The notes below the pieces were generated by a model that had not been told where the DNA came from, searched no databases, and saw nothing but the letters and a program-made list of their open reading frames with translations. A stretch of DNA of 64,000 nucleotides from Diphasiastrum complanatum (taxonomy: Eukaryota > Streptophyta > Lycopodiopsida > Lycopodiales > Lycopodiaceae), in the NCBI GenBank assembly GCA_029204225.1, contig CM055104.1:47314451-47378450 (forward strand), read 5' to 3'. Position 1 is the first letter of the stretch. Each line of letters begins with the position of its first letter. Position numbers and translations under genes: made by a program. Of this stretch, positions 3,041 through 49,074 are shown piece after piece.

Positions 3041-3404
3041 CATTAGAGGAATTTTGAGTTCCAAAAAGACCCTTTAAGAATTCATGCAAGATGCCTTTTT
3101 TATTATTAAAATATTATAACACTAATACTTTTAAAAAATCGTAGCTCAGAAGTATGCCATGTAACATATCATTGGAAAGCCCTTGTCGAGCACTTTCTAA
3201 TGCACCAAACTTTGCTAAATTTGGACTTACCACTAAAAAGTTATGCCATTTTTAGTATGGAATCAAAATGTGGACTCAAAAAGTTATGTTACGTAGATTT
3301 CAAATTTGAGTGTTTTGATTGGTCCATGTGTAAGAAAAAATTGTGAAAAAATATAAAAAAAATCTTTACAAAGGGTCTTTTTGGGATTTAGAACTCCTCT
3401 AATG
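3041..3404 (+). mobile_element. CATTAG inverted-repeat element, copy a
   Basis: A 364-bp non-coding element starts CATTAGAGGA and ends TCCTCTAATG. Subterminal GACCCTTT and AAAGGGTC mirror each other, and an inner inverted repeat is built on AAAAAGTTATG. Full relatives lie at 31880-32257 and 48271-48647, with fragments at 16908 and 30369. The flanks (ACATAGG left, TCAGTAG right) show no target duplication. Confidence 0.85.
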
Positions 3405-3544
3405 TCAGTAGTGTCTGTCTACACTCTGGAAGATTGTAGGTATGAACTAGAAGAAGTAGCCGTCAATCTGAACCGAATTCTAGAAAAAATCAAGATGTTC
3501 ATGGATCTATTCGATGATTTCGATCCCTTGGGGATGAAATTTTT

Positions 3545-4663
3545 GTGATGCACCAAAGCCTAGCGTCCTTTGAACTCCAAATTCCTAGAAGAGGATTTGA
3601 CCAGTTCCATGACACCGCTAATGTTTTTTATTCATCTTTTCAGATCGATAACCAAAATCAAGTATATCAAGCACCAGACACCATTCAGGTCATTGATGTA
3701 GTTAAATCACCAAAGCAGTTCGATGCCACGGTGCTTGATGGTTACAAAGCAGAAGACCTTTTTGAGGATGAAGAACCGACACGATCTCAACGCCAAACAA
3801 GCACCTTGCTGCTGCTGCTACCACAACCGCAACACCCATGGATTCTGGTGACGCACTAGATTTAGTCAATAACCTGCGTGAGTGATCCAGACCATGTTGG
3901 ATGAGAATAAGAACATGGACAAAAGAATATCCGAATTGGGATCTAAGAATACTTTGATCAGCCAGAAGGTGATTTAGCTGAATCGGGAGTTAAAGATCAC
4001 CAAACAACATGAAACAAAGTCCAAAGCTGAGATGAAGAAAGCCCAACAGTCAGTCAAAACATTGGATGGCTATGTGGCGACTCTTCAAAATACCCTCACG
4101 ACTGCTCAAGATCAAGTGGACAAAGCTGTCCAAGATGCCAAACAACAAGTGTTTATGCTTTAGGGACAATTGGATATGGCTGCTACGCTTGATCAAGAGC
4201 GCCTTCAAGGTGAATTGGACGCAACACCCTTGAAAGAGACACATATTTGCAAACACAAGTGTCTGATCATCCTGTCTCACTAGAGAAAATCAGTTATTTA
4301 TTTTAAAAAGTTGAAAACTATCGAATTTCATTGGCAGAGTCTCATATTTGATTTGATAAGTTTAAACGTACAGCATCGACAGAGCTGGCCAAGGAAAAGA
4401 CAATTATCAAGGATTATGAAAAGGCAGCCGCTCAAGTCTTGGAGTCAAATTCTCATGTCTCAATTTCTATTATGCCTCAATTCTCGCCTCAGTCACAAGA
4501 TCAAGGAGGATTTGATACATGCATGGATCAAGGGGGAGATGTTGATGTTGACGAAGTAGTACCAGATGCACAGGCCACGAAAGCAGGTCCATCTACTTCC
4601 AGGGCTAGGCCATTATTTCAGAAGCCGATCACCATCGAGGACCAGATCCAAACTTTTATGTAG
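3545..4663 (+). pseudogene. Degraded coding region with coiled coil, possibly gypsy-associated
   Basis: I do not recognise the protein. An open frame at 3545-3859 reads F-D-A-T-V-L-D-G-Y-K-A-E-D-L-F near its end. From about 3894 to 4230 another frame, with two stops, encodes a heptad-rich coiled coil (R-I-S-E-L-G, A-T-L-Q-N-T-L-T-T-A-Q-D-Q-V). A third piece at 4439-4663 is acidic and then S-T-S-R-A-R. An LTR-like block follows. A coiled-coil ORF lies next to gypsy pol at 21.9-23.2 kb on the other strand, so this may be the same kind of extra ORF, but I saw no direct sequence match. Confidence 0.45.
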
Positions 4664-4919
4664 CAGCATCCACATGAGTCCTCAATGGGTGGATGGGTAA
4701 TCAAGTTCAAGACCTCCGAGATTGAGGTCGGCAAATTATTGGACAAACTACCAGCATTGGGAGAGCAGCCGACTTGGTGAAAGACAATTTTTGAAAAGCT
4801 CCAGATTTCATCGTGAGCTATGTCGCAAGCCCTTGCCATTGCGAGTAGGTCCTTACTATGTGCCAATGCTGAGATGCAACAAATGAAAATATTTGGAAAT
4901 TCCAGTGGGAGAAGTTATG

Positions 4920-5757
4920 GACTTGGCTCATTACATTCGCCCCGTCCATTTACAATTACTTTACTTTATGCATAAGCAGGCCTTAAGCCCTTTTTTATTC
5001 ATTAGTGACACTTAGACTATATGGTTGGCCTTTGGCCTTATTATTCATTATTAAGCCATTTGGACATATTACTGGAGAGTGGGGTCCTTCTTGGAGGGGG
5101 CACTATTTTCCCTCCCAGTTGGGCCCTAGCCACCGGAAGCTTCCTTTTAGGGCTTCCTCTTGGCTATAAGTAGGGAAACTGTGTCATTTGTTATTCAGCT
5201 GATGATATTGATCTCTCTCGATGCTACCATGTACCACTTTCTTTGATAGGAAAAAGCAATTGGAGAATTTAGGGTGCACTTTGAACTAAAGAGATGTTGA
5301 AAATTAAGAGGGTGTCTCTTAATGCATGTCATCATTGACCTCACATCATCATCATGCAGAAAATTGGGATTTTTCCAAGGACAACGGGCCTTTTGAATGG
5401 TGTCTCTAGTGAGGTGGTCATTGCCACAATTCATGGTTGTCGTGATTAAATGTGAATTTAGACGGACATACTTAAATTAGAATAGAACGTACTTAGAGAG
5501 ATGTAGACCAATGCATTAGTACCAATCATTTGGTAGGTGCCACCAATATTTTTCAACACTCTTTTGTACCATAGCCTTCTAGGATGATCCAAAAGTTGTA
5601 TTCATTTGCTGAAGCATATCCCTTTAGTCTCCTTAATCTCTCTCTTTCCTGCTTTCTAGGGTTAAGTCTTGCTTATGTGCTGCTTTCATAGCTTAAGTCT
5701 TGCTTATGTGATGCTTTCACAGCTTAGCTCTAGGTCAGCTGTGGATCTATTCGTAAC
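4920..5757 (+). repeat. Probable LTR with TATA box
   Basis: A TATAAGTAG-type box at about 5163 and a primer-site match starting at 5759 suggest a sense LTR ending near 5757. The outer boundary is unclear and the canonical CA end is not visible, so this is tentative. No gene is seen within it. Confidence 0.4.
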
Positions 5758-5758
5758 T

Positions 5759-5770
5759 TGGTATCAGAGC
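5759..5770 (+). other. LTR-retrotransposon primer binding site
   Basis: TGGTATCAGAGC is an exact match to the initiator-Met-tRNA primer site used by many plant LTR retrotransposons. It separates the LTR-like block upstream from a tandemly repeated leader downstream. Confidence 0.7.
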
Positions 5771-5791
5771 ACTTTTCTGTGCACTACTTTT

Positions 5792-6060
5792 TCAGATTTA
5801 GTAGAGGCTGTCCAGCGCTCTAGTAACCCATCACTTTTGTCGATTTTTTCATCAGATTTCCATCGTTTTTTCATATTTAGTAGAGTTTGTCCAGCGCCCT
5901 ACTAACCCATCACTTTCATCGATTTTTTCATCAGATTTCCATCGTTGTCTCAGATTTGGTAGAGGCTAGCCAGCGCCCTACTACCTTGTCACCTTCGTCG
6001 ATTTTCTCCACCGATTTGCTGCCCATTTCGTGGCTTGATTGGAGGTTGTCTAGCGCCCTA
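5792..6060. repeat. 80-bp tandem repeat in a retrotransposon leader, about 3.4 units
   Basis: Units begin near 5792, 5872, 5952 and 6032, each with a TTTAGTAGAG-like start followed by CCAGCGCYCTA and TCGATTTTTTC. The copies have diverged. The open frame across them is not supported as coding. Confidence 0.8.
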
Positions 6061-6255
6061 CTTCATCACCATTTAGCTATTTTTTGTCAGGATGATCTCT
6101 TTATGATCCATGTTTCCTGGCATATCGCTTGCTTTTCCATGCTACTACAATGTGTGTCGTACTATACCAACAACGTTAATATAGATTTTGTAGTAAATAA
6201 TGTCGTTCCCACAGAGGACAATGTTAGAATGTTATGTATTTGGTACAATTTATGA

Positions 6256-6950
6256 CAAATGGTTTTGAGTGTTATTCTGGCTGTCAACAGACATTAGAAA
6301 GTAACCATTATTACTTGTGTTTGGAGAATGTAATGTCAATAATTTCAGAACAACAATCTGGCCTCTATCAAATTGAATGAAACACGTTCTACAGATGAGA
6401 TGTTATCAGTAGTACAATAATACTACACTCTGGCTGATTAAGGTGTCAACAGAGAATCGAGAATGTTCGATGTATTCGTGGCTGTGCAGACAATCAATTA
6501 ATCACGTTCGCGAACTGTTCGTTTCTAGACAGAAGTCCTCAACAACTTAAGTCCAAATTAATGGTTAAAGAACACGAATAGTTTTAGAGCATGTTAGAAA
6601 TTTATGCCAATTACAATCAGGAACACAGATCAAGGACTCAATTCTTTAGACAGGGACTGTCAGCTCATATGTATACATATAGCTTTATTCAATGATCGTG
6701 CTAGACTTTACCAAAGATAGTCGTTATTCGAGTGCCGAAAAGAAAGTATTCGCGATAGATGAATAAGATGATTTTAAGACAGTTCCTTAGAGCATGTTTT
6801 ATGGAGACACAACAAACGACTGTAATGTGCTAGAGAGTCTGTCTGATCAGAGAGTAATTCATGTAATGCGTAAGAGATTGCTAGTAGACTCAGGATCACT
6901 CACACTCAACAGTGCGGAGAACAGAGATATCTCTTGGATACTTTACACTA
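6256..6950. other. Intergenic, no gene seen
   Basis: AT-rich sequence with one TTCGCGAA at 6507. I found no coding, RNA or repeat boundary here. It may be upstream or leader sequence of the reverse-transcriptase element that follows. Confidence 0.4.
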
Positions 6951-6954
6951 GATA

Positions 6955-9900
6955 AAAATTTACATGGATTATGGTAAAAACCATATTGACCCTTTAGGTA
7001 TTGTGGAAAATTCGCTATTGATCTTGCTAATCTTGCTGATAAATATGAGGACGAAGAGAAATTTTATAATCAAAATGTAAGAAAAGTCTTTACATGCCTT
7101 GAAAAAGAAAATGAGGCCTTGTTTGCCGAACCAACGAATTCCTAATACACCCCTCTCTCCACACCCTCTTGTTTTCCTTGACGAGTTGGATGAAGATAGT
7201 GCTTCGCAACTTGAAATCTTCTCACAAGATATCTATGATGTAGGAGACCAATCTACCTTCGAGTTCTGCCAAGCTAAAAATTGTCAAATCCCTATGGTCC
7301 CCAGCCGAACTATTGAGTTCAAATCTGCACATACTGCTTTCGAACTTTGGAGCCTACCCTCTGTAAACTTGCTATCTCCCTTGCCTATAAAACTTTGGAT
7401 TCTACTTGAACATTTGAATAATAAAGAAGTGGAAACTTGCAAACTTGCCGCTTTAAATAAAAATACTTCACTTGAGACACTTATCGCCTTTGACAATATC
7501 ATTTGCATGAACCTTTTTGAACCATCTCGTTGCCCTTCTGAGCAAACCTGGGCTCGGGTTCGTGGACACTTTGACACCAGTTTTATTAGAATGAATATGC
7601 ACCAGGCCAGAATCTGGAATTGGAAGAGACCCTTTTTCAAATGTAGATGTGGTGACAAGTGCAAAAACAACTCTTCCATTGTTTGGTTCGATCACGCTGT
7701 TTGGTTCATAATGAACAATTTGTGTAAGTTTTTCCCTAGTGCATCCTTGCAAAATTAGTTGAATGCATTCTTCCTTTGGCTTCATAAGCTTGCCAGAGAC
7801 GTTGTCAAGTCACACCTCACTTTCCTCTTTATACGCCAACACATGATTGATGCATCTATAGAGTTAGCAGCAAACTCCTCTGCCAAACTACTTGCCAACC
7901 TTGCTGATGTGAAAAACGTTAGAGAAATTGAACGCTTTCTCAGAATACCAAGTTTCTCCACTCTCCAAGATAAATTCTTTCAAAACTCTAATAGAAGACC
8001 CGGCTCTTTCAACTTAAACAACCCGAGTTTGGTGGTGTCTTGACAGAATATGGGAAAAAGAAGGAGGTTTATAGGTTACAAAGGTAAGGAGGGGCAAGGC
8101 AGTGCTGCAAAAGAAGATTTACCGGTTAAAAAGCTAAACTTTTACAGGGATTAACTGGCTTGCAGAAGGACGAGGTTCTGGACAGAAGAACTCTTACTAG
8201 AAATGTGGTTGATCAACTACAACTCAACATGCACAAGGACAAGGCAAAGATCTTTTTACACTTACATTACTGCAATAGAATGTTTGAGACAGGTCATGTG
8301 AGACATTTTTACACTCGCATTTTATTATAGATCTTTGGCCTTATATATGAGTCCTTCCATGATATTGTGTTCGCATGGTCTTATATGCCGAATATTAAAA
8401 GTGAATGGTATTTTTCATTTGATGTTTTTTTGCAATTTTGAGATTGAAAATCTGCCTTTATGTTCCTGTGCTTCTTTGAAACGTTTCAAAAAGTTCATTT
8501 CGGATAAATTTAGTCATGTACTTACAACGGAGTGCAACATAATTAGAAGTATGTACCTCAAAAAATCATTAGAAAAAAGACTTAATCATATTATGTTGCA
8601 ACATATGTGTATTTATAGTGTGGCTAATGAACTTTATGATGGTTGGTTTAAACTTATGAAGCTTTTACCTGAGTGTGCAATGATAGATGATGATACTGTT
8701 TTGAAACATGCCGAGTTATGTAGACTTGCCGCTATTGATTTCTTAAAAAGAAAAAAATGGATTCAAGGGAATATTGTTAGTTTACAGAAAAAGATAGATG
8801 CCAATAATGAACGACAATGGTTAATCAAACATTTATAGGTCAATGGCGTAGACAAAGCACAACATAATCCATGTTTCATTTGTATTAATCTGGTCAGAAC
8901 ACTAGCAATTAAGAGGCTTGATAGTCAAGATTTCGAACCCTTTCCTAATAGATCAAATAATTTTGTTCATCACTCTTTAGAGCATATAAAGGACACTTTG
9001 GAAAAAAGAATACCGGAAGAGTTCATTTATTCAAAAGAACTTCCCTACCTCTTATGCACTTTTAAAGCTCATAAAAACTCTTTCAGATGAATCACAAATG
9101 CCCATGAGTGCTATTTTTCTGGACTTGCTAAATTCTTGACAGGGGTTCTGGGTATGACACATCCTTTCATTATGGAAGGTGCAGGCCTTAAGGCGAAAAT
9201 ATACAAGAGCTACCTAAATGGGGATACAACTTTACTTTGGCAGTGTGAATCTTCTATTGACTTCTATTTAAATATACCAAAGAAGATTTATTGTATGGAA
9301 GCCATGGATATTTCCAAATGTTACAAAAATATACCCCTGGATGGACCGGATGGGTATAAGAAAACTAATCCTTTTGGCCTTCAAATTCACAAAAAAAAAA
9401 TCCCTTTACTATAAATGGATATCAAATACCAGGGATTTCCAATGGTCCTGGAACAAAAAAAATTCTGACAAATGAAATGCTATTGACATGGATACAATAT
9501 GTGCATGAAATTCTCTTTTGATAGATATTTGTATTGTCAGACTTGGTAATCATACATGGAGACAAATCAGGGGGATTCCTATGGGATTCTCTTACTTCGA
9601 AATGCAATTCATCAAAAGGTTGGCGAAATTGAGACAAATAAAATTTATGACTGATTTCAAGTTCTCGTTCAGATATATTGATGATATATGCTTTATCAAC
9701 AATCCCCTTATCGACAAGTTCATGGACAAAACGCAGCCTAGGACACCGGACAACCCTTTCTGGATCTATCCCTTGGAATATCTCGATATAGATAAAAGCA
9801 ACATCGCCAATAACGTGGTGAACTTTTTTAACATTACCATTTCTTTTAATCCCATAAATGGCAAGGTACTTTTTTCTAAATATGACAAAAGAAGAGATTT

Positions 9901-10087: not shown

Positions 10088-10222
10088 CACAAGAAACCTT
10101 TCCTGGACTATCTTCTGAGCTGCCTACAGATATTTACTATTCTTTGGCGGGCAGTTAACTTTTCTTTAGAGGGGAGCTAGCTGCCCCCTAAGGGATTCAC
10201 TGATTGCGGGTTTGGTCGGTGG

Positions 10223-10224
<2 letters not shown>

Positions 10225-10292
<68 letters not shown>
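10225..10292. repeat. (TC)n microsatellite, 34 units
   Basis: An uninterrupted TC run lying shortly downstream of the RT ORF. It may be the 3' tail of that element or an independent microsatellite. Confidence 0.98.
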
Positions 10293-10294
<2 letters not shown>

Positions 10295-12103: not shown

Positions 12104-12107
<4 letters not shown>

Positions 12108-16618: not shown

Positions 16619-16907
16619 TGTCGGGGAAATGGTGCGTGGTCTGCGATCCAGGTCGAACAATTGGATCAAGACAATCCTACTACTACACGAAGGACAAGAA
16701 GATGAAGTAGCAATGCATACAATACTGAAAAAAACTTTGAACGCAATAAAGACAGTGATTAATTCAGATTAATGTATAGAAATACACGTCAGTTTGATGC
16801 TGGCTAAAAGCGTGGTTTGGTGGTACAATAAAAGAACCTATTTTTCATTGTACCTTTTGGTAGTACATTTCACTTTTTGAGGATTTTATTACTCATAATT
16901 GTTTTGA
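16619..16907 (-). repeat. Partial 5' LTR of the antisense copia
   Basis: Its position outside the primer site suggests LTR sequence. The outer end is not identified because a CATTAG-element fragment lies inside or beside it. Confidence 0.4.
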
Positions 16908-17036
16908 GTTCACATTAAAAATGACATAACTTTTTAGTGATAAGTCCAATTTCAACAAAGTTTGGTGCTTTCCAATGATATGTTACATGACATACCTCCG
17001 AGCTATGCTTCAAAAGCTATGGCAAGTCAAAAGTAT
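16908..17036 (-). mobile_element. CATTAG-element fragment, copy e
   Basis: This matches the inner part of the CATTAG elements in reverse orientation (ACATAACTTTTTAGTG, then CATGACATACCTCCGAGC, then ATGGCAAGTCAAAAGTAT). Both termini and a short inner stretch are missing. It lies 135 bp from the SDHAF2 stop codon. Confidence 0.7.
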
Positions 17037-25873: not shown

Positions 25874-27314
25874 CATTAGGGGCAGTTTGGATTCAAAATG
25901 GACCCTTTGTAGTAGACTTCACATGCTTTAAGCCTCCAAATGGACCAATAATCTTATAACATGTGTACAACACTTTAAGAGTGCTCATCGGATGGAAAAA
26001 GTGTTCAAGTTTCTAGATTATTTTTTCTTATTTCAAAAACTCTTGTCGGGCATAAATAAATATTTCATTGGACAATATGTGCTGCCCGTTTGTTAAATAT
26101 CTATCCGAATAGTTTAACTAGCATTAGTTTTTCTAAACTATACTTCTCCTGCATATTTCTCCCTTTGAAAAACGCTACGAGGGGTCCCACGCCCTTGAAA
26201 AAATGTGCAACTGGTGCTTGGAATCGATGGGCTTCACTTCTCCTTTGCATTTATAGGTGATGGTGTGAGAGCTTTCCAAACAAACTAACAAGTTAGGGTT
26301 AAAAAGTTTTAGACAGTCAAAGTTCGTAGAAAATCTCTCATTTAAAAAATATATATATTTCAAAAAAATAACCGTAATATCGAATCAGCGCGTGCCCTTA
26401 GGGTTTGAGCCCGCTCAAATTCAAAGGGCACATGCTGAACCGATATTAAAATTTTAATTTTTTTTTTTGGATAGAGCTCAACGAGAGCTTTGCAACGGCA
26501 CCAGAATGACCTAATTCCGATCTATGGTTCAAAAGTGATAGGCAATCAAAGTTTGACTGCCTATCACTTTTGAACTGTAGATCGGAATTAGGTCATTCTG
26601 GTGCCGTTGCAAAGCTCTCGTCAAGCTCTTTTCAAAAAAAAAAAAAACAAAAAAAAAATTAAAAACTCTAATATCAGTTCAATGCGCGCCCTTAGGGTTT
26701 GAGCTCTCGCACGCTAAACTGATATTAGGGATTCTATTTTATTTTATTTTTTTTTATTTTATTTTTTTTTTTTTTTGGAAAAGAGCTTGACAAGAGCTTT
26801 GCAGCGGCACCAGAATGGCTTAATTCCAAGCTACGGTTCAAAAGTTATAGGCAGTCAAAGTTTTGGCGCCAAAACTTTGACTATCTATAACTTTTGAACT
26901 GTAGATCAAAAGTAAGTCGTTCTGGTGCCGTTGTAAAGCTCTCGTTGAGCTCTATCCTAAAAAAAATAAAAATTAGCCCGCTCAAACCCGAAGGGTACGT
27001 GTTGATTTGATATTAGGGTTATTTTTTTTAAATATATATATATATTTTTTTGGTGAGGGATTTTCTATGAACTTTGACTGCCTATAACTTTTTAATCATA
27101 ACTCGGAACCAGGTCATGTAGGGTGCCATTGTGAAGCTCTCGTCGAGCTCTTTCTAATGGCACCATGTTTGTTTCAATTGTTGGGTGGCGGATAGTTCAG
27201 GAATCACAATAAAAACAAGCATAGATGTTGCCGAAAATTTTCTCTCTCTTGTTAATCTTTCTCTATAGTCAAACTTCTTAAAGGGCCCATTTTGAACCCA
27301 TATTTTTCCTAATG
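25874..27314. mobile_element. 1.44-kb nested foldback with CATTAGG termini
   Basis: The ends are CATTAGG and CCTAATG, each followed inward by (G)GTTCAAAATGG-like and CCCTTT stretches. Inside are symmetric hairpins: X 26376-26448, Y 26473-26629 (arms about 78 bp, roughly 94 percent identical by eye), X' 26669-26727, Y' 26781-26955 (centre TTTTGGCGCCAAAA) and half-unit X'' 26976-27015. Outer arms at about 26290-26362 and 27020-27095 pair with each other. The right arm holds AACTTTTTAATC, CTCGTCGAGC and CTTTCTAATGGCACCA, which align with the core of the small CATTAG elements. No coding capacity. It splits the gypsy between gag and protease. Confidence 0.85.
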
Positions 27315-29480: not shown

Positions 29481-29880
29481 GATCCTGTTGGGAGAGAGAG
29501 AGAATAAGTCATGTGTGAGAAACAAAAATAGCTCGAAAGAAAGACGAATGCGAACGAGAAACAAAACTCAAATGGAATGTGTTCGTGCGCAGCAGAATGA
29601 GCTATACAACTCTCTTCCTAAGCATAACTACGCCTATCAGAACGATCAAAAAATTGGGATGGAAATCAATGTCGTTCTTGATTACGTAGCCAAACTTCAA
29701 TAAAACACCAGAAGTATAATGTGTCACGAACAACTAGACAAATTATCTGTCGTGAATGATTTGCAAAGAGCTAGACATAGCTCGACTGATAATCAGTCGC
29801 GAACAATTCGCGAAAGACAAGACTAAACATTAGTCATGCTAAAACAGATTACCAAATTGAGCAACTAGAAAAGTCAAACA
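29481..29880. other. LTR-like block, no gene supported
   Basis: It contains an Arg/Lys-rich open frame at 29488-29703 without recognisable features and a TTCGCGAA at 29807, like the blocks at 2.2, 6.5 and 14.6 kb. Confidence 0.35.
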
Positions 29881-29882
29881 GA

Positions 29883-30366
29883 ATGAATAACAATAAGCTT
29901 AGCAATATTGACACAAATCTGAACGTAGATTTTTACTCTGCTGATGCTTCCTCAGCCCCTGCCGTTGCCATAAATCCTTTGACTCAAACTAGAAGACGCA
30001 ACTGCAACAAGTGGCCCAATCTGTTAATTCAGAAAGCTCCATTCTACCATGTTGTCCACCACATCACTAGGGAGGATCTTGATAGTTTTGTCATATTCAC
30101 ACCCGCTGCACTTTAGTGCCTTCAGGAGGTTGTTGAGGATTATCAGAGCCTTTTCTTTGAAGATTCATTTTTGTTCGTTATACATGCCAAGAGAGTCACT
30201 ATTATGCCTAAAGATTTCCAACTACTGTATAGGATGCGAGATACATACTCCAAATTATACATGGCTCAGTAGTCTACTCCTAGACCTGATCCAATAAATA
30301 GGACTGGCCTCCCGACCAAGCAGCCTAGGAAGCAGCCAGCCCCCAAGAGAGCCCTGAAGAAAGTTA
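29883..30366 (+). pseudogene. Histone H3 variant, CENH3-like, broken
   Basis: A single frame from the ATG at 29883 holds a histone H3 fold. L-L-I-Q-K-A-P-F-Y-H-V-V-H-H-I matches the N-helix and alpha-1 region. C-L-Q-E-V-V-E-D-Y with F-F-E-D-S-F matches alpha-2. [14 protein letters not shown] (K at 30189) matches loop 2 and alpha-3. The loop between alpha-1 and alpha-2 is one residue longer than in canonical H3; with E-D-Y and D-F-Q-L this favours a centromeric (CENH3-type) variant. The N-tail is not H3-like. An in-frame TAG at 30114 replaces a residue just before alpha-2, and another TAG lies at 30270. The frame after it reads T-K-Q-P-R-K-Q-P-A-P-K-R, oddly like an H3 N-tail. A CATTAG element begins at 30369. 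No introns are visible, so a processed copy is possible. Confidence 0.75.
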
Positions 30367-30368
30367 TG

Positions 30369-30523
30369 CATTAGAGGAGTTCTAAATCCAAAAAAGACCC
30401 TTTGTAAAGATTCTTTTTATATTTTTTCTCAATTTTTTCTTACACATGGACCAATCAAAACACTCAAAGTTGAAATCTACGTAACGTAACTTTTTGAGTC
30501 CACACTAAAAATGGCATAACTTT
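30369..30523 (-). mobile_element. Half CATTAG element, copy d
   Basis: It starts CATTAGAGGAGTTCTAAATC and follows the other copies through GACCCTTTGTAAAG and ACGTAACGTAAC to about 30523. There it changes abruptly into copia integrase sequence. The other half is missing. Confidence 0.8.
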
Positions 30524-32722
30524 TGTGCATACACCTTTGGAGAAAAGGACCAAGGAAGATCCATCATCAATCAAAGGTATTATGCTCGGGTATGGAGAAG
30601 CAAGTAAGGGATATAAGGTATACATTCTATCTTCATACAAGTTTGTGATTTCTAGAGATATCATTTTTGATGAGGATAATATGCATAAACTTGTTGATGG
30701 CTCAATCAAATCACCTATCAAGAGGGAGGTGGCCAAGGATCAAGATGTCATAGATCTTGAGGAGGAGCTAGAGCCATGTGAACCAATCACTCCAAGAAGA
30801 TCATCAAGGGCAAGAATGGAGCCATTGAGGCTCACATACCAAGACAAGGGGAAGCAAGTCGAGGGTAATCCGTCTTCATCCTTTGCACTCATTTCAAGTT
30901 TTGAAGAAACTTCATGTGTAGAAGATGCATTGAGTTCAAAGGAATGGTTTCAAGCTATGATAGATGATTGGATGTGATTGGATGTAAATGGGTTTTTAAG
31001 CTAAATCTCAATATGGATGGAAGTGTAAGCAAACACAAGGCAAGGTTAGTTGCCAAAGGATATGCTCAAGCAAAGGGCATAGATTTTGAAGAAACTTTTG
31101 CACCCGTGGCCAAGATGGTCACAATAGGGTTACTTCTTGCACTTGCTTCACATTTTGGTTGGATGATCTTTCAAATGGATGTTTCTAATGCATTTTTAAA
31201 TGGTTATTTTGAAGAAGACATATTCATGGAGCAACCCCAAGGCTTTATCAAGCTGGGGATGGAAGGTAAAGTATGTCATCTTCAAAGGAGCTTATATGGT
31301 TTGAAGCAAGCATCAAGGTCTTGGAGTTCAAGACTTCATGATTTTTTAGTTTATATTGGCTTCACTCAAAGTGAATATGATCCAACTTTGTACATAATGT
31401 ACGATGTAAATGGCATTGCACTTTTATTGATTTATGTAGATGACATCATCCTTAGTGGTGATAACATTATGGCATTGAGAAAACCAAGAAAAATCTATCA
31501 CCAAAATTTAAGATGGTAGATCTTGGTCATCTTCGCTTTTATTGGGCATAGAAGTACTTAGAGATTCAGATTTCATCTTCATTAGTCAAACTAAGTATGC
31601 TCAAAGGTTTCTCAATAGATTCAAGATGCAAGATTGCAAGCATGTAGAAACACCAATGGAGCAAGATGTAAAAGTGCTCATTAAAAGTGATGAAGCATCC
31701 TTTATGGACATCACTCTTTATAGGCAGATTATAGGCTCCTTAATGTGGATCACCATTACTAGGCCTGATCTATGCCTTAGTGTGTAGGCTAAGTCAATAT
31801 ATGCAAGATCCATTAGTGATACATTGGAAAAATGCTAAAAGGATCTTGAGATACATCTCGGTACTCTAGATCATGGAATCATTAGAGGAGTTCTAATCCA
31901 AAAATGATCCTTTGTAAAGATTCTTTTTATATTTTTTCTCAATTTTTTTCTTACACATGGACCAATCAAAACACTCAAATTTGAAAACTACGTAACGTAA
32001 CTTTTTGAGTCCACGTTTTGATTCCACACTAAAAATGGCATAACTTTTTAGTGGTAAGTCTGAATTTAGCGAAGTTTGGTGCATTGAAAAGCGCTCGACA
32101 AGGACTTTCCAATGATTTGTTACATGACATACTTTTGAGCTACGATAAAAAAGTTATGGCAAGTCAAAAGTATTATTGTTATAATATTTTAATAATATAA
32201 ACTACATCTTGAACGAATTCTTAAAGGGTCTTTTTGGAGCTCAAAACTCCTCTAATGTCTCTATAGAGGAGATGTCATTGATTTGCATGCCTTTAGTGAC
32301 TTGGATTTTGTAGGTGACAAAAGGGATAGGAAGTCCACAAGTGCCTATGCAAAATTCATTGGTGGAGGAGTAGTTTCTTGGTTGTCAAAGAAACAAGAAA
32401 CCATTTTTCTTTCTTCAACCGAAGCTGAGTATAAAGCTCTCACCACTACAACAAAGGAGCTATTGTGGATCAAAAGGCTACTAATGGAGCTGAAAAGTCA
32501 TGAGTTTAGATGTTGTTCCAACTCCCTACAATGACAACATTTCAGCCCAACACCTTGCAACCAATCTAATCTTCCATGCAAGGCCAAAACATATTGAGAT
32601 CTCTCATCATTTTGTGAGAGAGAAGGTGCAATCAAAGGAGATATTTTGGAACATGTGGAAAGTATGAATGTATTGCTGATATCCTCACTAAACCACTTCA
32701 AAGAGCTAAATTTGTGAAGTTA
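30524..32722 (+). pseudogene. Ty1/copia 3' half: integrase tail, RT, RNase H
   Basis: Integrase C-terminal tail at 30525-30960 (K-R-T-K-E-D-P-S-S, G-Y-G-E-A-S-K-G-Y-K-V-Y). RT from 30968: G-C-K-W-V-F-K, A-R-L-V-A-K-G-Y-A-Q, D-F-E-E-T-F-A-P-V-A, Q-M-D-V-S-N-A-F-L-N-G, S-L-Y-G-L-K-Q-A-S-R-S-W, with Y-V-D-D catalytic aspartates near 31435. RNase H follows, interrupted by a CATTAG element, and resumes with D-R-K-S-T-S-A-Y and S-S-T-E-A-E-Y at 32283-32534, then A-D-I-L-T-K-P-L in another frame. Only a few frame breaks occur, so the RT is fairly well preserved. Gag, protease and the integrase core are missing. Confidence 0.9.
31880..32257 (-). mobile_element. CATTAG element inside copia RNase H, copy b
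   Basis: A full-length 378-bp copy runs from CATTAGAGGAG to CTCCTCTAATG. The host copia reads G-T-L-D-H-G-I up to the element and L-Y-R-G-D-V-I-D-L-H after it. Ignoring exactly 31880-32257 joins these in frame with no base left over, so there is no target duplication. Confidence 0.9.
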
Positions 32723-34050: not shown

Positions 34051-34051
34051 T

Positions 34052-37932: not shown

Positions 37933-37933
37933 G

Positions 37934-39805: not shown

Positions 39806-42414
39806 GCGTATATCAAGACAACCCTAATTAGTTATCCATTTACTAGCAGTTAATAAGTGTGAGGGATTTGGCACCCTGCATGTGTAGTTGCATCCTAAAA
39901 TGATGACAACCTAGTGTGATATTTAGTTACCCTAAGATAAACTCCTAAACCATCAAGAATCGCTTCCAATTGCCCTCATCTAACCCATATTGGAAAAAGT
40001 CATAGGCCATGAGATGTATAGTCCAATGGATGCATTCAACAATCATAATCAATTAGAAGTAGTTATCAAGATTGTTTATCAGATTATTGTTGGAGATGAA
40101 GGGTGAGAGCGGATGGCAACGAAGGAAGAGAGAAGTAAATTGATTGCGGAAACAACTCTCCCGCTGTTATGGGCTGTTACAAGCAAGATCAGTCTAAAAG
40201 AATGTGAATGCAGAAATAGATTCACAACACATGCGTTCTCACTAACAGGATCATAAAATAGTTCATACTCAGACAAATGAATGAGTACAATCCACCAAAG
40301 ATATTAAATAGGCTGTGGAATTACTAGAAATCGGTTTTCAGTATGAAGTTTAGTTTCAAAAATTTTGTATGATAGTGCAGTATGATATTGCTATTCCTCA
40401 GGCGTCAAGATCAAAAACTAAGGAGTCATAGACATCCATGTTCTCATCAGAGTGAGTGAACGAGCATAAGCATGCAGTAGTAAAGTGTAATCAAATCACA
40501 ACACACATACATCTACGTAAGACACATATGGAAATGTGTTGCTTCTATATTACATTGAAATCTTGAACAACACAGAATGTTATAGCCAAAATGTCTACAT
40601 AACTTGGATGCTGAATATCTTTTGATCAAACAAATAAGTTTGCATCACGGAGCATCAAATATTGATGTGTTCTGAAGATGTATTTATAGCTGCATCCTTG
40701 TATTTACAAGAATCGTTAACTAATCTATAATTGAAAGACTAGTTTAGCTTTAAGTATGTACTTGGTTGTGTACATATCATATATTTAAGGTACAATGACA
40801 TCTTAATAGGTATACATGGGTCAGGCGACTTGAGATCGTTGACGTGGACAAGAACATCACATACTTCGCATTTTTCATAAAGTAGCTAGAGATGTTTCTC
40901 ATTGAAATGGACGCCCTTTGCATTTTTCGCATTCTGCGAAAAACCTGAAGGTGTTTGAAAAAAAAGACCTGAAGGTGTTGAAACTGATGTCGAAATATTC
41001 ACATTTTGCATTTGTCACATTTTGAAAAAATACGAACTATGCGACAAACAGTTCATTTTTGTAGACTGTTGCGACAAATAGTGTATTTCTGCAAACTGTT
41101 GCGAGAAATAGTGCATTTGTGCAGATTGTTGCGACAAATAGTGTATTTCTGCAGACTTATAGAAAATCCTGATTTGTTGAAGTCGTTGAAGCTGGCCAAG
41201 TTTTTAATGATCTTCAAATTCCTGAACTTGACATTCGAATGTGAAAAGATAACAAGAATGGTTACCCTTTAGTCATTATCCATGGATAAAGATCAACCGG
41301 AAGCCTGACATAGTCGTCTTTCGAATAGTTTGGCTGTCTGAATTATGTGATTCATGTAGGTATCAGATGAGCAGACATAGAACCAAAAGAGATTTCATTT
41401 GACCCTAGATCAGTGACTATGAATCCGCAAGAAGAATCTTGAAATAGAAAATAATATTCACCAAGGAGAAAATTGTGGACTTAATTTCCAACAACTACAA
41501 CACTCCATACACTCAAATGCTAGCGGTTCCATGACTTAACCCTAGGCCATAGAATTAGAGTCATAGCCTTACCATTGAGGGTATCTCTCGTAAAGTCCAA
41601 GCTAATTTACAACTTTATTTATTTTGGCAAGTAATTTGAATTTTACAGTGTATAAGGGCTTCTTTTTTATTTTACCATGCCATAAGTTCTCTAATGTGCT
41701 TCAAGACACATGCCTTTAGCAAAAAATATATACTGCTATCTAGTGCATCTCACATATTCACAATTCTTTTGACTACAACACGTTCTTCACACATTAAGTA
41801 TAGGTGCACCATTGGTGGTGTCTAATATATCTCTTTACAATCTCTCCAAGATTGAGGATGTTTCTTGTCATTTTCTTTTTGATAGAATTTTGTGGAAGGT
41901 AATTGCAAATCTTTTTGCGAACCAAGGCCTCTAACTACCTCTTAGGTAGGTTTCACTTTAGAATGTTGTCCCATTCTAGATTACTTATTGAAAATGTAGA
42001 TCCCAAGTGATTGGGGAATGTCGTTTCCAATCCCGAGGGCCATCCCAACCACCCCGTGCTCCCCAGCCGATGAGGATTTTTCAGGCCCCAAAGACACGGC
42101 TGCGGGGAGGTGTAATTGCAATCTCAGTCCTATCAGTCTTGATGCCTAGGTTTTTCATTCTCTAGATCGTCCACCCCTCTATATAAAAGTCCGTAGAAGG
42201 GTCATCGAACTGGTCTCATCTCTCTCTGTTTCTAGTGGATCTAATTTTGGGGGTCTGTTAGTACTGCCAGCTGGTCCGGGTGACTGCACTGGCAATCTGA
42301 ATGGCATGAAAGGCAAGGTGGGTCTCGTGTAGTCGATGGAAACAGCGTAAGTCAAATGCCAGAACCCATCAATAATGAACTCATAGGTTTCGAAGTAGCT
42401 ATAACCATACACAA
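39806..42414. other. Non-coding, LTR-like, no gene
   Basis: No supported ORF. A possible 1.4-kb LTR or unit runs from TGTTGGAGATG at 40088 to TTTCCAACA at 41493 (perfect 7-bp inverted ends), but I found no primer site or target duplication. A TATATAAAAG box at about 42180 lies in a locally GC-richer stretch; no transcript-like ORF follows. Confidence 0.35.
41041..41160. repeat. 30-bp minisatellite, four units
   Basis: Units start at 41041, 41071, 41101 and 41131, with consensus near GCGACAAATAGTGTATTTCT plus GCAGACTGTT. The open frame through it (repeated L-L-R-Q-I-V) is a by-product of the period being a multiple of three. Confidence 0.92.
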
Positions 42415-42604
42415 AGAGGTACGAAGTAGTCTGATGCTAGTAAGCAATCAAGACGAAATACAGACAAGAAGTCTGTTTGTGTGCGACACGAGTTCTATGA
42501 TCAGGATCCATAGTGATCCACAAGTTCCGATAGTAAGTGAGATATCCACTCGTGAGAGAACTGTATTTCTCTCACGCCAACGCACTGCGTGGATCTGCAT
42601 GCAG
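42415..42604 (-). repeat. Second copy of the 190-bp repeat from 1.75 kb
   Basis: Its reverse complement matches 1749-1937. Here it truncates the RNase H of an antisense copia. Confidence 0.6.
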
Positions 42605-45260
42605 TCTGAGCAATGTGATTTTATTGGCCATCTTCGCGGCTGCAACGTATTCTGCTTCGCAAGATGACTTAGCTATGATGGTCTGCTTCTTGTTGACCCA
42701 GAGTACTACTGCACCTGCTGCAATGGTGCACCCTCCTGAGACACTTTTACAGACGTCCTTGAGTGATGCCCAACTTGCATCACTGTAGGAGTGCATCTGG
42801 ATCCGGTATCATGAGAGTAACACAGCCCATAATCCTTCATCTTTTGAAGGTATTGTAAGGTACACTTTGCGATTTTCCAGTGTGCTAAGCCTAGTTTTGT
42901 GCTGAATTGGCTCATTCTGAACATTACATAAGCTATGTCAGGACGTGTGTTGTCTGCTAGATACATCAAAGATCCGATTAGCCTCCTATAAGGTGTATGC
43001 TGCATGATCTCTTGTTCTTAATCAGTCTTGGGACTATCTTCGTTCGTTAGAATTATTCTTGCAAGCATTGGGGTGTTTTTCCCTTTGCAATCTGTCATCC
43101 TGAAATCATCTAGGATCTTCTGGATATACCTAGACTGATGAAGGTATAGCTTTCCTTCATCATAGTTGTGATCGATTCGTAAGCCTAGATAACATCTGGC
43201 TTCTCCTAGGTCTGCTATCTCAAAATGCTTCGAGATCTTGCTCTTTACTTTGGCAATTAGCTCTTCGCTTCTACATAGTTTCAGTGTGTCATCTACGTAC
43301 ACAACAACAATGATGATCTCCCCATCCGTGATCCTTACATAAACATTGGAATCGACTATACGATGGCTCGAATCCCAAGGATCTCGGGGCATGAACTTTC
43401 TTCTTGTACCATTGTCATGCAGATTGCTTCAGACCATAGATACTTCTATGCATTCAGCATGCATAGGTAGGAAGTGAGTCGAAGATATAACATAGAGGTT
43501 GATCCATGTAGACTTCTTCATCTAGCTTGCCATGTAAAAATGTTGTCCTCTCATCGACGATGTGAATCTTGAGGTCGTATACAACTGCATATGCAAAGAG
43601 TAGGCATAATGACACATGCTTCACCACTAGAGAGAAGGTCTCAATGTAGTCGATGTCATACTTTTGAGAGAATCCCTTTGCTACAAGTTTGGCCTTGTAT
43701 ATCGAAACATCTCCATTCGAGCCATACTTGAGCTCGTAAATCCATTTTCATTGCACTGTCTTTCGCTTGTCTGTTGGCACTAGTTGTAGTGTCCATACCT
43801 CATTCTTTTTCATGGATTCGATTTTCTCATTCATGACTTGGATCCATTTGTCTGGACTGTCAATGGCTTCTTCGATTATTTGTGGTTCGCCACTGAATTC
43901 ACAAAACTCTTTGGATATTGAAGCCGAGATGTCTAGCACAAATCTTGTTGGCGCTCTTCGCTCTCTTGTCGATCTCTTGGGAGATTCTTCAGGTACTGCA
44001 ATGCTCTTGCCTTTGTCTTTTTGGCTAGGTCTGGAACCATCTTAGTCTACAGGTGTTCTAGCTGCAAGCAGGCTTGTGGGTCCTTTTTTCATCTGATTCG
44101 TCGTAGCTGATGTGGGACTCGAACATCTTTTCTGAGTTTCAGGTTCTGCTCTCACTATCATGGTTGGCAAGTCGTAGTATTGCTTTCCTCGGACTTCATA
44201 GCTGGTAGAATCATTGTCGGCCATTCTTCTGGTCTCATCGAACTTGACGTCTCTGACAATGTTTATTAGATTCGTTTTTGGTATGTAGATCCTGTAGTAT
44301 GACGAATGATTGTCATACCCAATGACGTATCCTAATTCGACTTTCTCATTAAGCTTCCTTAAAAGCTTATCAGAAATATGTGCATAAGCTGCATAGCAAA
44401 TAATGCGAACATGTGTCAAATTGGGCTTTCTACCCCACCATAGTTCGTGTGGTGTCATGTGTAAGCAACAACAGATTTGCCTATCCTATTTTGGATGTAG
44501 GCAGCTATAGCTACTACTTCAGCCCATCTTGGTGCTTTCAAATAGGCCATCATGCACCTTGCGGCTTCCATGAGTGTCATGTTCTTTTGGTCAGCAACAC
44601 CATTGTGTTGTGGTGCATAGGAGGCAGTCCTTCTGTAAAGGATTCCTCGATCATTGTAAAATTCAGTGAAGCAATTTGAGATGTATTTTGCACCACGATC
44701 AGTCCTGATCTACTTCACCTTGCTTCATGTGCATCTTTCTGTCCAGTTCACATATTTTGTGAACTTGTCGAGTGCTTCTGATTTGTTGTGAATGAAGTAG
44801 AATCTGGAGAACTTGTTGTAGTCACGAATGAAGGTGATGTAATATCTCAAGCCTCCTATTGAGATCGCATCGAAAGGTCCATAGATGTCCGAATGTACCA
44901 GCTCCAGAATCTTTGTTGTTCCGTAGGAGTCTCTGGTGAATGGAGTTCGGGACATCTTCCTTCATGCACGCATCACAGATTGTCGAATTGGTTGCATTCG
45001 TGATGCTTACCCCTATGGTAGATCCATGTTGGCTTGTTTGATACAATGCCATTGAGTTCATGTGGCATAGTATGACATGCAACAATGTTCACAATGTCTA
45101 GATTGACATGCATGTAGATTTACACATGGAAATGGTCTAATATGACCTTTTAGAAACTCGAGCCATCATAAATGCATTGTGTCCTAAGTTTCCATTGTGA
45201 CATGCAAGGCATGCAAATATAGTAATGGACACGTGCATGTAGTTTTGTATTTGTCTAGTT
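42605..45260 (-). pseudogene. Ty1/copia pol, antisense, broken
   Basis: Reading leftwards: pre-integrase (G-H-N-A-F-M-M-A-R-V-S-K, near 45200), zinc pair I-C-D-A-C (near 44980), integrase core (L-V-H-S-D-I-Y-G-P, near 44900) and tail to 44042 (P-H-E-L-W-W-G-R-K-P). Then comes the RT start at 43939-43748 (D-K-W-I-Q-V-M-N-E-K-I), an RT middle with many stops, and RT with V-V-Y-V-D-D-T near 43290. RNase H (43005-42605) reads H-T-P-Y-R-R-L-I-G-S-L-M-Y-L and S-C-E-A-E-Y-V-A-A-A before being cut by the 190-bp repeat. The family differs from the other copias here and may pair with the gag at 0.75-1.3 kb, which is inference. Confidence 0.88.
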
Positions 45261-46057
45261 GAGAAATTGACATTTGGAGAAAGTAGGTAGAAGTTAGGTG
45301 CAATTTCTGCATGCAAGCTGTTGTCAATATGGTAGTAGTTTACACTTAAATAGGTGTAGGAAATGCATTGAATGCTAGTAGTACCACAAATTTTGGCTCT
45401 CCTATATATGTACATATGGTTCTCATTCATTTCTAATGATGAATCGAACTTTTGTAAGGTCATAATATCAAAATTGGATCTCATGCTATTTTGCTTGTAA
45501 TTGTATTCTCTCTCTAACTCAAGATTGGTGTCTTCTTCATACATTATTTTGATTGTGGACTTTTCCTATTTGTGAGGAACTAGTATTTCTCTGATCTGTA
45601 GCATTCTAGATTGTGCTCTAGCCTCAGATTTGTATGTAGATTGTAGTATTACTCTGCAGGTGACCTATGTGCTACCATAAAGCATGGTAAAGATCATTCA
45701 CACTGTTGCTGTGGTTCCCCACACGTGTGAAGTTGTTGGATTTTCTACTAGGCTCTTCTCATTTGGACATGGAGTAGATGCATTACACAAAAAGCTCTTC
45801 TTCTCAAAGAGAGAGTCTCTTAAATAAGCAAGAGAGCTTTTTAGGTGGCATCCTAGTGGCATTTCCACATTTCACAAATTAGAAGTGGAATTATGCTCTC
45901 CACTAGAGGTCACCACTAAAAGGTGGCTCACTCTACTTTCTTTAAGAGTGGTCTACTTGCATTTATTACTTTGCCTAAAAATACTAGTTCCTACATGGTC
46001 ATTCCATCTTTTGAGATTCACCATGAGGCTTACACAGTTCTTGCTTGTCATTCTTAG
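45261..46057. other. Junction region, no gene
   Basis: Between two antisense copia remnants. A minus-strand open frame at 45544-45137 overlaps the start of the downstream pre-integrase region, but its first part has no recognisable features. LTR-like text with an ACACGTGTG palindrome occurs near 45721. Confidence 0.35.
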
Positions 46058-46828
46058 CTAGTACTTCTCGGCTCTCAGTCTTCGTTCGTCTCGTCTTCTC
46101 AAAGACCTCCTCGGCCTAAGGTGAGAGGTGCTCTTGGGCAACTCTGGCCGAATATCTTGGGAATTCATTAGAATCAGCCAACAACCATCTTCACTTCTAA
46201 AAGTTTTGATCTTGTGATTAGGATGCTTCTCAACAAATGCTTTGAGCTTAAGAAAGCTCTCAAATACTTGTGCTTTAGATGAAAGTATGAATACCCAACA
46301 AAACCTTGAGTAATCTTCTATGAATGTAACAAACATGGTGGCACCTCCATTGGACATTGTACTTGCAAAGTGTACATCCGAGTGGATCAACTCAAGTTGA
46401 TGAGTTGTCTTTGTGATTGAACTTGGGAAGGGCTTTGTATCTGCTGTTTAGAGAGCACATGCTTCACATACTTTCTCCTCTTTTGACAAGGATCTTGGAA
46501 GCCCTAAGACAAGCTCCTCCTTGCACATGACCTGCTTGGACTTTGAGTTGATGTGACCGATTCTTTTGTGCCAAAGACTATGATTGGATAAATTGGTCTC
46601 CTCGGCTAGCATCACAATATTAGCATCCACATAGGCATCTAGTTTGAATAATCTTCCAAATCTTATGCCTCTAGCAATGATCTTGCCATACTTCTTGATG
46701 TTACATGCATTTGTGGTGAACTCCACAATCAAACCATTGTCAAGCAATTGTCCTACACTAAGCAAGTTCTTAGTGATACTAGGAATGTAAAGTACTCCAT
46801 CAATCCTGATCTTCCTTGAAGATCCCAA
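46058..46828 (-). pseudogene. Ty1/copia pre-integrase and integrase start
   Basis: The minus frame 46828-46448 reads V-L-Y-I-P-S-I-T-K-N-L-L-S-V-G-Q-L and L-W-H-K-R-I-G-H-I-N, ending in the integrase zinc region (V-C-E-A-C). 46390-46058 continues with H-S-D-V, F-I-E-D-Y-S-R-F and R-S-E-D-G, near the first two catalytic Asp positions, then breaks into unrelated sequence. RT and RNase H are absent. It belongs to the same element as the gag upstream. Confidence 0.88.
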
Positions 46829-46921
46829 GCATAAAGGTATGGATCCTATGCCTTCTACTTTACAAGCATAATCATTTGCTGTAAAAATTGACTTGATAGG
46901 TCCATCATAGATAGATAAGGT

Positions 46922-47902
46922 TTAAAAATACTCCCTCTTACTTGTCATGTGGGAGCTAGCCCCACTATCTATCCACCAAGGGTCTTCACTTCTTATGCTT
47001 GAAGATGAGAAACTTGACATCATGAGTGAATCTTCATGAGAGCTCTCCTCTTCCTCTTGGCCTAGGTTTGCTTGACTTTGAGATTGCCTCTTCTTGAAGC
47101 ACTCCGAGGCATAGTGCCCCATCTTGCCACAAAAGTAGCATTTGATCTTCGACTTATTCTTCTTTGGCTTGCTCAAACTTGGACTTGAAGATCCTTCTTG
47201 ATCTTCACCTTTGACTTGGTTCTTCTTGAATGCAGCACCCTTGCCTTTCAATTTGCTCTTGCTCTTGGTGAAAAGAGCCTTGTCATCTCCATCATTGAGG
47301 GAGACCTTCTCCATCCTTGACTTGATGTGAGTTCTCCTACTCTCCTCGGCCATGAGGACTCCATGGAGATCTTCAAGTGAGGGCAGCTTGCCCATAATTG
47401 CATAGCCTTGCACTAGGTTAGCAAAATCCACACTCAAACCATTCAAGATTAGTTGAACAAGATCACTTTCCTTAATGGAATCTCCTATGTAAGCAAGCTC
47501 CTTGTTTAAATCCTTAACTCTCAACACATATGAATGTCCACTCTCTCCTTTAGCTTGAAAACATTGAAAGATTTGATTCTTCAAGGATAGCAACCTTGAA
47601 GTATGCTTGGATTCATATATCTTTTGAAGAGTTTCCCATGCTTCTTGATCCGAGGTGCAAACACCTACCTCCTTAAGAAGCTCATTAGCTACATTTATTT
47701 TTATATGATGGAGAGCAACCTTGCACCTCCTTTTGTATTTTGTAGCTTTTTGAGGGTGAATAGGCTCATCCTCTTCACCACTCACTATATCCATTAGATC
47801 TTGTAAAATAAGAATTGATTCCATTCTTAACTTCCAAATTGAATGATTTGAAGCATTCAATCTATTATGTGAATCCAAAAGATATGCATTCATTGAAGCC
47901 AT
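46922..47902 (-). pseudogene. Ty1/copia Gag with zinc knuckle and protease site, open frame
   Basis: An uninterrupted minus-strand ORF of 326 codons, the best preserved retrotransposon gene in the window. It starts M-A-S-M-N-A-Y-L-L-D. The capsid (UBN2-type) covers roughly residues 15-200. A CCHC knuckle, C-Y-F-C-G-K-M-G-H-Y-A-S-E-C, lies near residues 255-268. The protease start W-W-I-D-S-G-A-S-S-H-M is at the end. A stop at 46922 cuts Gag-Pol there, although the frame resumes at 46828, so the element is defective only slightly at this point. Gag packages the RNA into cytoplasmic particles. Confidence 0.92.
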
Positions 47903-49074
47903 CTATCTTTAAACAAGATCTTGATCACAAGAATAGATGCAAAATAGAAATGATTGAAAGACTAGCTATCCCACTACCTAGGGACTTGAGAAAGCTCAAA
48001 ACTTAATCTCTCAATAAGAACCTACCTGATCTTAAGCCAAATCAAATCTATTAATGTCAACATGAATGAAAACTAGCTTGAATTTGCATAATAATCGGAT
48101 CTATGATTGCCTCCTCCTTGATCACGACTTTACAAGGATACAAAATTCACCTAATCTGAACCAAAAGGAATCGTACGCACATAGATTGTCTCTTCAAATC
48201 ATTCCTACAAAATCAGGTTGAATCATCATGCAATAATCAATTCAAACTATCTCACAAATCAAGCAAAATTCATTAGAGGAGGTTTGAGCTCCAAAAAGAC
48301 CCTTTAAAAATTTGTGCAAGATGTAATTTATGTTATTAAAATATTATAACACTAATACTTTTGACTTGCCATAACTTTTTAATCGTAGCCCAAAAGTAAT
48401 CATGTAACATATCATTGGAAAGGCCTTGTCAAGCGCTTTTTAATGCACCAAACTTCGCTAAATTTGGACTTACCACTAAACAGTTATGCCATTTTTAGTG
48501 TGGAATCAAAATGTGGACTCAAAAAGTTACGTTACATAGATTTCAAATTTGAATGTTTTGATTGGTCCATGTGTAAGAAAAAATTGAGAAAAAATATAAA
48601 AAGAATCTTTACAAAGGGTCTTTTTTGGATTTAGAACTCCTCTAATGGAACACAATCTTGACTAGAATTGCATTCCCTTGATGTGCACTTATCAAAGTCT
48701 TTGGGCTGACCCCAAAATTGAATTTCTAAGATCTGAATAAGTCTAAGAACGACCTATTATAGTACCAAAGATAAGAATCTACCTTCCTTTTGATTGATTG
48801 AAAACTATTCCTTGTGATAGACTCCACAAATTGAGTAGCATCAATATGAGAAAAGTACAAACTACTCGTTATTTTGATCCAATTGATAAGATATGACCAC
48901 AACTCGGATTTTGAAGCTAAAAAGCCTGTAAATAAAAAATCATTAGATCACTCTTCACTCAAATTGATAAAAAATTGAAGGTACTACTCATAAATTATGT
49001 CTAGATAGTAATCAATGCTTGAATTGCATCAAAATCTATGATTCTAGCATGAAGTGAAGCTCATTTCTTGGAAT
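47903..49074 (-). mobile_element. Copia leader, interrupted by a CATTAG element
   Basis: Untranslated leader between the primer site and the gag start. It is about 0.8 kb without the inserted element at 48271-48647. It gives the context for the shorter leader piece at 1-151. Confidence 0.65.
48271..48647 (+). mobile_element. CATTAG element inside copia leader, copy c
   Basis: A 377-bp full copy, CATTAGAGGAGG to CCTCTAATG, in the same orientation as copy a. The flanks are AGCAAAATT and GAACACAATC, with no duplication. Confidence 0.9.

Follow-up and report, generated by a model that had tools for sequence, protein, structure and literature searches.

CATTAG-ended inverted-repeat elements of Diphasiastrum complanatum insert without target duplication and share related ends with long, protein-coding elements

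The 64,000-nt stretch of the Diphasiastrum complanatum genome analysed here (contig CM055104.1, positions 47,314,451 to 47,378,450; hereafter the window) harbours a group of short DNA elements whose terminal inverted repeats (TIRs) begin with CATTAG, some of them lodged within copia- and gypsy-like retrotransposon sequence (Table 1). The original prediction for this stretch had described six members, namely three full copies, two fragments and one relative of 1.44 kb, as a single family that inserts without duplicating its target and fits no known superfamily. All six were found again by alignment. In this study, the group was followed through the whole genome (1.745 Gb in 5176 contigs), where elements of three size classes have related ends and enter their targets without gain or loss of a base pair.

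Results and Discussion

Two related non-coding families in the window

The three full small copies are mutually 88-93% identical, with the ends CATTAGAGGA../..CTCTAATG, and the truncated copy aligns to them at 89-90% identity. When the copy at 48271-48647 was used as reference in the genome search, the 40 candidates scored out of 3139 first-look candidates were all full 377-bp elements with 94-100% identity. On its own, the 11-base end is poor evidence in a window as rich in A+T as this one, which contains 31 two-mismatch matches against 19 expected, the count of 31 being attained in 2 of 100 shuffles; the reality of the family is settled by the full-length alignment together with the genome copies.

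The TIRs are about 35 bp long and follow 5'-CATTAGRGG...CCCTTT. The block behind CCCTTT distinguishes an L end, where it is mostly GTMAAGAT, from an R end, where it is mostly AAGAA, and this difference is kept in three size classes; the element at 25874 carries the variant GTAGTAGA of the subterminal block. All complete copies examined end in CATTA..TAATG, and the full form CATTAG..CTAATG, as originally described, holds throughout with the exception of one end of copy L051 (CATTAA).

The assignment of the 1.44-kb element to the same family had to be revised in part. It does belong to the same group of related elements, but it is no copy of the small one, with which it shares similar ends and an internal stretch of 72-93 bp at 72-75% identity; it represents a separate, related second non-autonomous family. 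The L-end pattern of this second family has 45 matches in the genome, and nine of the 13 copies fetched have both ends, at lengths of 1,224-1,673 bp. None of these nine complete relatives shows a target duplication, a stop-free stretch above 102 codons or a match to the protein pieces of the long elements described below. The other four, in which the second end was not found, contain open reading frames (ORFs) 90-185 codons in length, the retroelement-like ones being in L049, with the exception of L054, which has none; the long-element transposase is matched by no ORF among them. Over 13 small and 1.44-kb elements, the longest stop-free stretch ranges from 69 codons, the value for the 1.44-kb element of the window, to 102 codons, and a comparison of these elements with 12 long-element protein pieces gave no match. 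The window elements thus have the features of miniature inverted-repeat transposable elements (MITEs), being short, bounded by TIRs, non-coding, high in copy number and related at their ends to a coding element. Plant MITEs such as Stowaway and Tourist are, like the small CATTAG elements, hundreds of base pairs long, non-coding and abundant, with inverted repeats; unlike the CATTAG elements, the known plant groups carry target duplications of 2-11 bp.

Insertion without target duplication

Empty sites were taken from paralogous loci, making use of the many genome copies of the host repeats. In the case of the small element within copia sequence (31880-32257), the junction GGAAT^TCTC is uninterrupted in all 11 paralogs fetched (L002-L012), homology stopping about 20 bp to the right in L008. 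At the gypsy site of the 1.44-kb element (25874-27314), 10 of the 11 paralogs fetched (L014-L024) have a junction of equal length, with two substitutions in L017-L019 and an 8-nt gap further upstream in L021, and about 8 nt are missing at the junction in L024. Both insertions had been predicted to be exact, and the paralogs bear this out.

For a wider survey, 35 filled copies were taken, of which the 31 that differ in their flanks were kept; the small copies fetched were 20 of the 40 listed. Comparison of these flanks with all fetched loci revealed six further insertions with an empty paralog, and the site is exact in five of them: three small copies (L036, L037, L038), the 1.2-kb copy L052 and the long element D, described below. 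The empty counterpart of L052 is located in the window itself, where BLAST aligned 24 bp to the left and 61 bp to the right of the insertion point; that of D is locus L063. A candidate empty site for L040 was dropped as an artefact of a neighbouring partial copy. Overall, nothing is duplicated or lost in seven of the eight insertions with an empty site, and the seven cover three size classes. The flanks of the filled copies tell the same story, as direct repeats of 1 bp (8/31) and 2 bp (3/31) are near chance (8.69 and 2.08 in shuffled flanks), and repeats of 3 bp or longer are absent from all 31 independent pairs (the mean for 3 bp in shuffled flanks is 0.60). The absence of a constant target duplication, as originally claimed, is thereby upheld at paralogous empty sites and in the flanks alike.

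These counts bear directly on whether we are dealing with ordinary transposons of the CACTA/EnSpm type, in which a duplication of 2-3 bp has been lost or obscured. Such an origin would agree with the 5'-CA..TG-3' ends and with the motif order of the long-element protein, both of which fit the CACTA/Transib group, as well as with the abundance of Transposase_21 genes in this genome (180 matches). Nevertheless, we regard it as improbable, given the flank matches at 2 and 3 bp, the seven empty sites that are exactly zero and a negative profile comparison with local Transposase_21 loci.

The target itself is marked by a single bias. Counting outwards from the element, position 3 is A or T at 71 of 85 ends, with an uncorrected p of 8.5e-5 that becomes about 0.001 once the 12 positions scored are allowed for, and none of the other positions has a p below 0.19. 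The preference is present on both sides (25/31 and 28/31) and is symmetric about the joint itself, as a blunt joint predicts, since a staggered joint would centre the symmetry within the duplicated bases.

Zero duplication is usual for recombinases and rolling-circle elements of these kinds, and a mover in the style of Crypton, DIRS or Helitron, with no DDE enzyme involved, would account for it. We consider this highly improbable: the CATTAG elements have long inverted repeats with CA..TG at both ends, no Rep/helicase or tyrosine recombinase domain appeared when 16 ORF pieces of the long elements, a subset of the ORFs, were run against Pfam, and the target has neither a fixed A|T nor a core sequence. 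Helitrons in particular are characterised by a Rep/helicase protein, an A|T target and the absence of TIRs, a combination at variance with the presence of TIRs here, with the lack of such a domain in the scanned pieces and with the target.

Long elements with related ends

The original prediction had suggested looking for a large element with the same ends and a transposase or recombinase gene, and elements of this kind are present in the genome. The R end of the 1.44-kb family, used as a pattern at up to three mismatches, has 1304 genome matches (a count in which the 1.44-kb family, which the pattern also fits, is included), against none for the reversed control. Twenty of the 100 listed R-end loci were fetched, and 13 of them carry the first exon of one and the same protein, at 58-100% identity. 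The complete long element A measures 10,240 bp (C1:21824706-21834945), with the R end CATTAGGGAAAATATGGGCTCAAAATGGGCCCTTTAAGAA, the L end CATTAGGGGATATTAGAACTCAAAATGGGCCCTTTGTCAAGAT and flanks that show no repeat. Its L-end pattern has 1064 genome matches at up to three mismatches, and again none for the reversed control. A second complete element, D, measures 6,436 bp (C1:63266588-63273023) and also has both ends and flanks free of a repeat; it lacks the part corresponding to positions 5042-9309 of A. In a further copy, B, a far end proposed at 10,177 was rejected, as the sequence there is no CATTAG-type repeat, so that B does not rank among the complete elements.

Between the three size classes, corresponding ends have 34-44 of 48 bases in common; the maxima over 1000 shuffles are 32-34.

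A putative transposase

The protein of the long elements has about 834 residues and is encoded by several exons, which were read across several copies. Inspection by eye brought out D381 (VIKLDES), D473 (AGDLKTL), C493-x2-C496 (HPCLYC), H539 (TLHAE), H716-x3-H720 (HILLHH) and E741 (SLQGMEK). Among the copies covering each position, these residues are conserved in 11/11 (D381), 8/10 (D473), 8/8 (C493), 8/8 (C496), 6/7 (H539), 7/7 (H716), 7/7 (H720) and 5/7 (E741). Their order, D, D, C(2)C, H(3-4)H, E, is the one published for the CMCT clade (PMC12730594). The ratio of nonsynonymous to synonymous substitution rates (dN/dS) is 0.48-0.65 over five exon pieces, which suggests past constraint. The Pfam scan of the protein gave no match to Transposase_21, nor to any DDE or PHIS family. 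No relative appeared among PDB sequences either. The coding member thus yielded no catalogued protein relative, in agreement with the initial impression of an element outside the known superfamilies; with Repbase outside our search, a catalogued TIR family may nevertheless match. Judging from its motifs, the protein most likely works like a DDE transposase of the CACTA/Transib/RAG1 type; we do not claim its membership in any named superfamily.

A model for blunt insertion

All together, these results allow us to propose that the CATTAG elements probably form a divergent lineage of DDE transposons with blunt insertion, and that the window elements are MITE-like derivatives moved by the protein of the long ones. 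The protein would bind the TIRs together with the subterminal blocks of both types, L and R, release the element by cutting at the CA..TG termini and, in a cut-and-paste reaction, join both 3' ends to directly opposite phosphates of the target. With zero stagger between the two joints, gap repair would copy nothing, and no target duplication would arise. The long elements share both end types with the small and 1.44-kb elements, and their protein would move these in trans. Target choice would be near random, apart from the A/T three bases outside each end, and the histone-like gene described below might coat the element DNA or help it to evade silencing.

A number of observations weigh against this model or parts of it. 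The insertion of L026, the eighth with an empty site, is ambiguous by 2 nt, in a region of poor alignment. Among A, B, C and D, the transposase copies that were read through, not one is intact: A has E at position 473, B has K and C has D at position 741, and copy D carries stops. The published motif order also appears in 880 of 20,000 shuffles (699 of 20,000 when the third H is included) and is therefore suggestive only; a stricter pattern (LH.[DE], W...G.E) appears in 0 of 20,000, but it was chosen after seeing the sequence and in part from residues of RAG1. The Pfam search of the protein gave nothing above the cut-off (the best sub-threshold hits include BLYB, E 0.0073), and no relative was found among PDB sequences or in two scans of IMG/VR viral contigs. 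Comparison by hhalign with six of the seven Transposase_21 loci fetched from this genome returned a probability of 0.2%, with shallow alignments on both sides.

The ends raise a further difficulty. Those of small and long elements are alike at only 34-35 of 48 bases, so that a different long subfamily may be the direct partner of the small element. Nor is overall identity always a guide to L and R, as the L end at 25874 agrees with the long R end at 36 bases and with the long L end at 35. Long and short CATTAG elements might share no more than a distant ancestor, the autonomous partner of the small ones belonging to another, unseen or extinct family. When the genome was searched for small-element ends enclosing another interior, 4 and 17 matches (21 in all) resulted; of the three fetched (L058-L060), two are deletion derivatives and one is a fragment. 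A pattern from which both known families were excluded had 0 genome matches. Since the CATTA ends, the CCCTTT core, for the most part the subterminal asymmetry and the zero-bp rule are common to the three size classes, we consider such a separate origin unlikely, albeit worth keeping in mind, and favour movement of the small elements by the long-element protein.

Relation to known transposons

The literature search brought up a single TIR group that lacks target duplications, as the CATTAG elements do, namely Spy of the PHIS superfamily (PMC4482050 and PMC11304231), whose transposase is of the IS5/Harbinger-like DDE type. If the CATTAG elements were PHIS/Spy-like transposons and the long-element protein a passenger, this shared property would be explained. 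The likeness ends there, as the passages cited give AAATTT/AAWTT as the target of Spy and the hosts named there (PMC11304231) are invertebrates, in contrast to a near-random target with one weak A/T preference at +3 and a plant host. Moreover, the C(2)C/H(3-4)H order is present in the long-element protein, which matched none of the PHIS families in the Pfam scan. We know of no Spy element outside animals. A Spy-like origin is, in our judgement, highly improbable.

A possible wider affiliation is with the CMCT clade, which comprises EnSpm/CACTA, Mirage, Chapaev, Transib/RAG1, Plavaka, ESTA and Lanisha. According to PMC12730594, its members share with the long CATTAG elements both the 5'-CA..TG-3' ends and the order of the motifs; they generate target duplications of 2-5 bp, as opposed to 0 bp here, and the profile of the long-element protein has no similarity to the six local Transposase_21 loci. 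Within the clade, the fungal PlavakaB has ends, 5'-CATCA..TGATG-3', that resemble the 5'-CATTA..TAATG-3' of the CATTAG elements, and C(2)C and H(3-4)H motifs as in the long-element protein. It differs, according to the same source (PMC12730594), in its duplications of 2-3 bp, in its fungal hosts and in the TET/JBP genes of some families, where the long CATTAG elements carry a histone-like gene. The Mariam element of wheat (PMC6824096) was set aside, as it has no TIRs.

Among the titles and abstract openings listed in our literature search, with Repbase and most subscription journals outside it, we found no plant TIR element without target duplication and no name for this family group. On the whole, the interpretation first offered for these elements is supported, each of its testable parts having held. 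More tentatively, and as a possibility we would not yet put on an equal footing with the model above, the elements may constitute a new plant lineage at the level of a family group or above, possibly a superfamily, with a divergent RAG1/Transib-like transposase of zero stagger and an H3 variant of its own as a helper at the chromatin level; blunt insertion would then have arisen twice independently, here and in Spy, with the present lineage as its first case in plants.

How long the target duplication is counts among the main hallmarks by which TIR transposons are recognised and classified. Standard annotation can miss elements that leave none, and this may explain why the literature searched gave no name for a group whose long member alone has more than 1000 end matches. 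Should membership in the RAG1/Transib group prove true, the cut spacing of this enzyme group can reach zero, and the way in which DDE enzymes set the stagger between the two strand-transfer events becomes testable. A transposon-borne H3-like gene would likewise offer a direct way to test whether own nucleosome components serve as an escape from plant silencing.

Histone-H3-like cargo gene

Long copies often contain a histone-H3-like gene (Pfam Histone, 2.8e-17), which is present in A and B and absent from D. The tail of its product resembles the H3 tail ARTKQTAR and is followed by a proline-rich stretch. In the genome, the 150 places scored for this gene, out of 6587 first-look places, show 78-100% identity.

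Linkage between the gene and the long elements was examined with 150 transposase, 150 H3-like and 100 + 100 end places as listed, duplicated assembly segments included. At least 21 transposase-H3 pairs lie within 15 kb of each other among these listed places; in 21 of 21 both genes are on the same strand and the H3-like gene is 1,973-3,808 bp downstream, and no other arrangement of the two occurs among them. Every linked pair among the listed places agrees with one arrangement, which runs from the R end through transposase and H3-like gene to the L end (R-transposase 4, R-H3 6, R-L 2, H3-L 7, transposase-L 6), with 0 pairs in the wrong arrangements tested.

The long elements also have reading frames on the reverse strand, in which no known domains were recognised; dN/dS is 0.36 and 0.49 in the two measured. 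A Ulp1-like protease reading behind the H3 domain was discarded, as it relied on HW and DSVNCG motifs seen by eye, and Pfam lent it no support.

A decayed frame of this type occurs in the window, with about 100 bp between its end and the truncated small element at 30369. It is 42.5% identical over 87 amino acids to the long-element H3-like protein and represents the same kind of cargo gene; we do not place it within a CATTAG element here.

Further features of the window and other copies

Table 1. CATTAG-ended elements and associated features of the 64,000-nt window.
Feature	Position	Strand	Remarks
Full small element, 364 bp	3041..3404	+	R-type end CCCTTTAAGAA first; flanks without target duplication
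Unoccupied paralogous site of the L052 insertion (1.2-kb relative)	16825..16826		Insertion point aligned without any base added or missing (0 bp)
Internal fragment of a more diverged small element	16902..17036	-	72-73% identity to full copies; both ends absent
1.44-kb non-autonomous relative	25874..27314	-	L-type end first on the + strand; within gypsy-like sequence
L-type TIR and start of subterminal block, 1.44-kb element	25874..25919	+	CATTAGGGGCAG..GGACCCTTTGTAG
R-type TIR and subterminal block, 1.44-kb element	27267..27314	-	44/48 bases identical to R end of the 10.2-kb element
Decayed histone-H3-like reading frame	29793..30269	+	One in-frame stop
Truncated small element	30369..30524	-	L-type end intact, break after about 155 bp, then copia-like sequence
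Full small element, 378 bp	31880..32257	-	L-type end CCTTTGTAAAG first on the + strand; within copia sequence
Full small element, 377 bp	48271..48647	+	R-type end first

The interior of the 1.44-kb element (26291-27103) consists of imperfect inverted repeats, with 71.6% identity over an 885-column self-alignment, and one unit of these repeats resembles the core of the small element. Elsewhere in the genome, the small copies L033 and L040 lie, by eye, within copia reading frames that stay in frame across the insertion, with the signatures CFFCGKKGHY of a gag zinc knuckle and KARLVIKG|YAQSKG of reverse transcriptase.

Four pairs of small copies (L026/L034, L027/L028, L029/L030 and L042/L043) have identical 30-bp flanks at different contig positions, which suggests duplicated (haplotype) segments in the assembly. 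The L-end matches of the 1.44-kb family are unevenly distributed between the contig strands (11 forward, 34 reverse), a skew that may be due in part to duplicated segments; the other end patterns are balanced (682/622 for the R end and 523/541 for the long L end).

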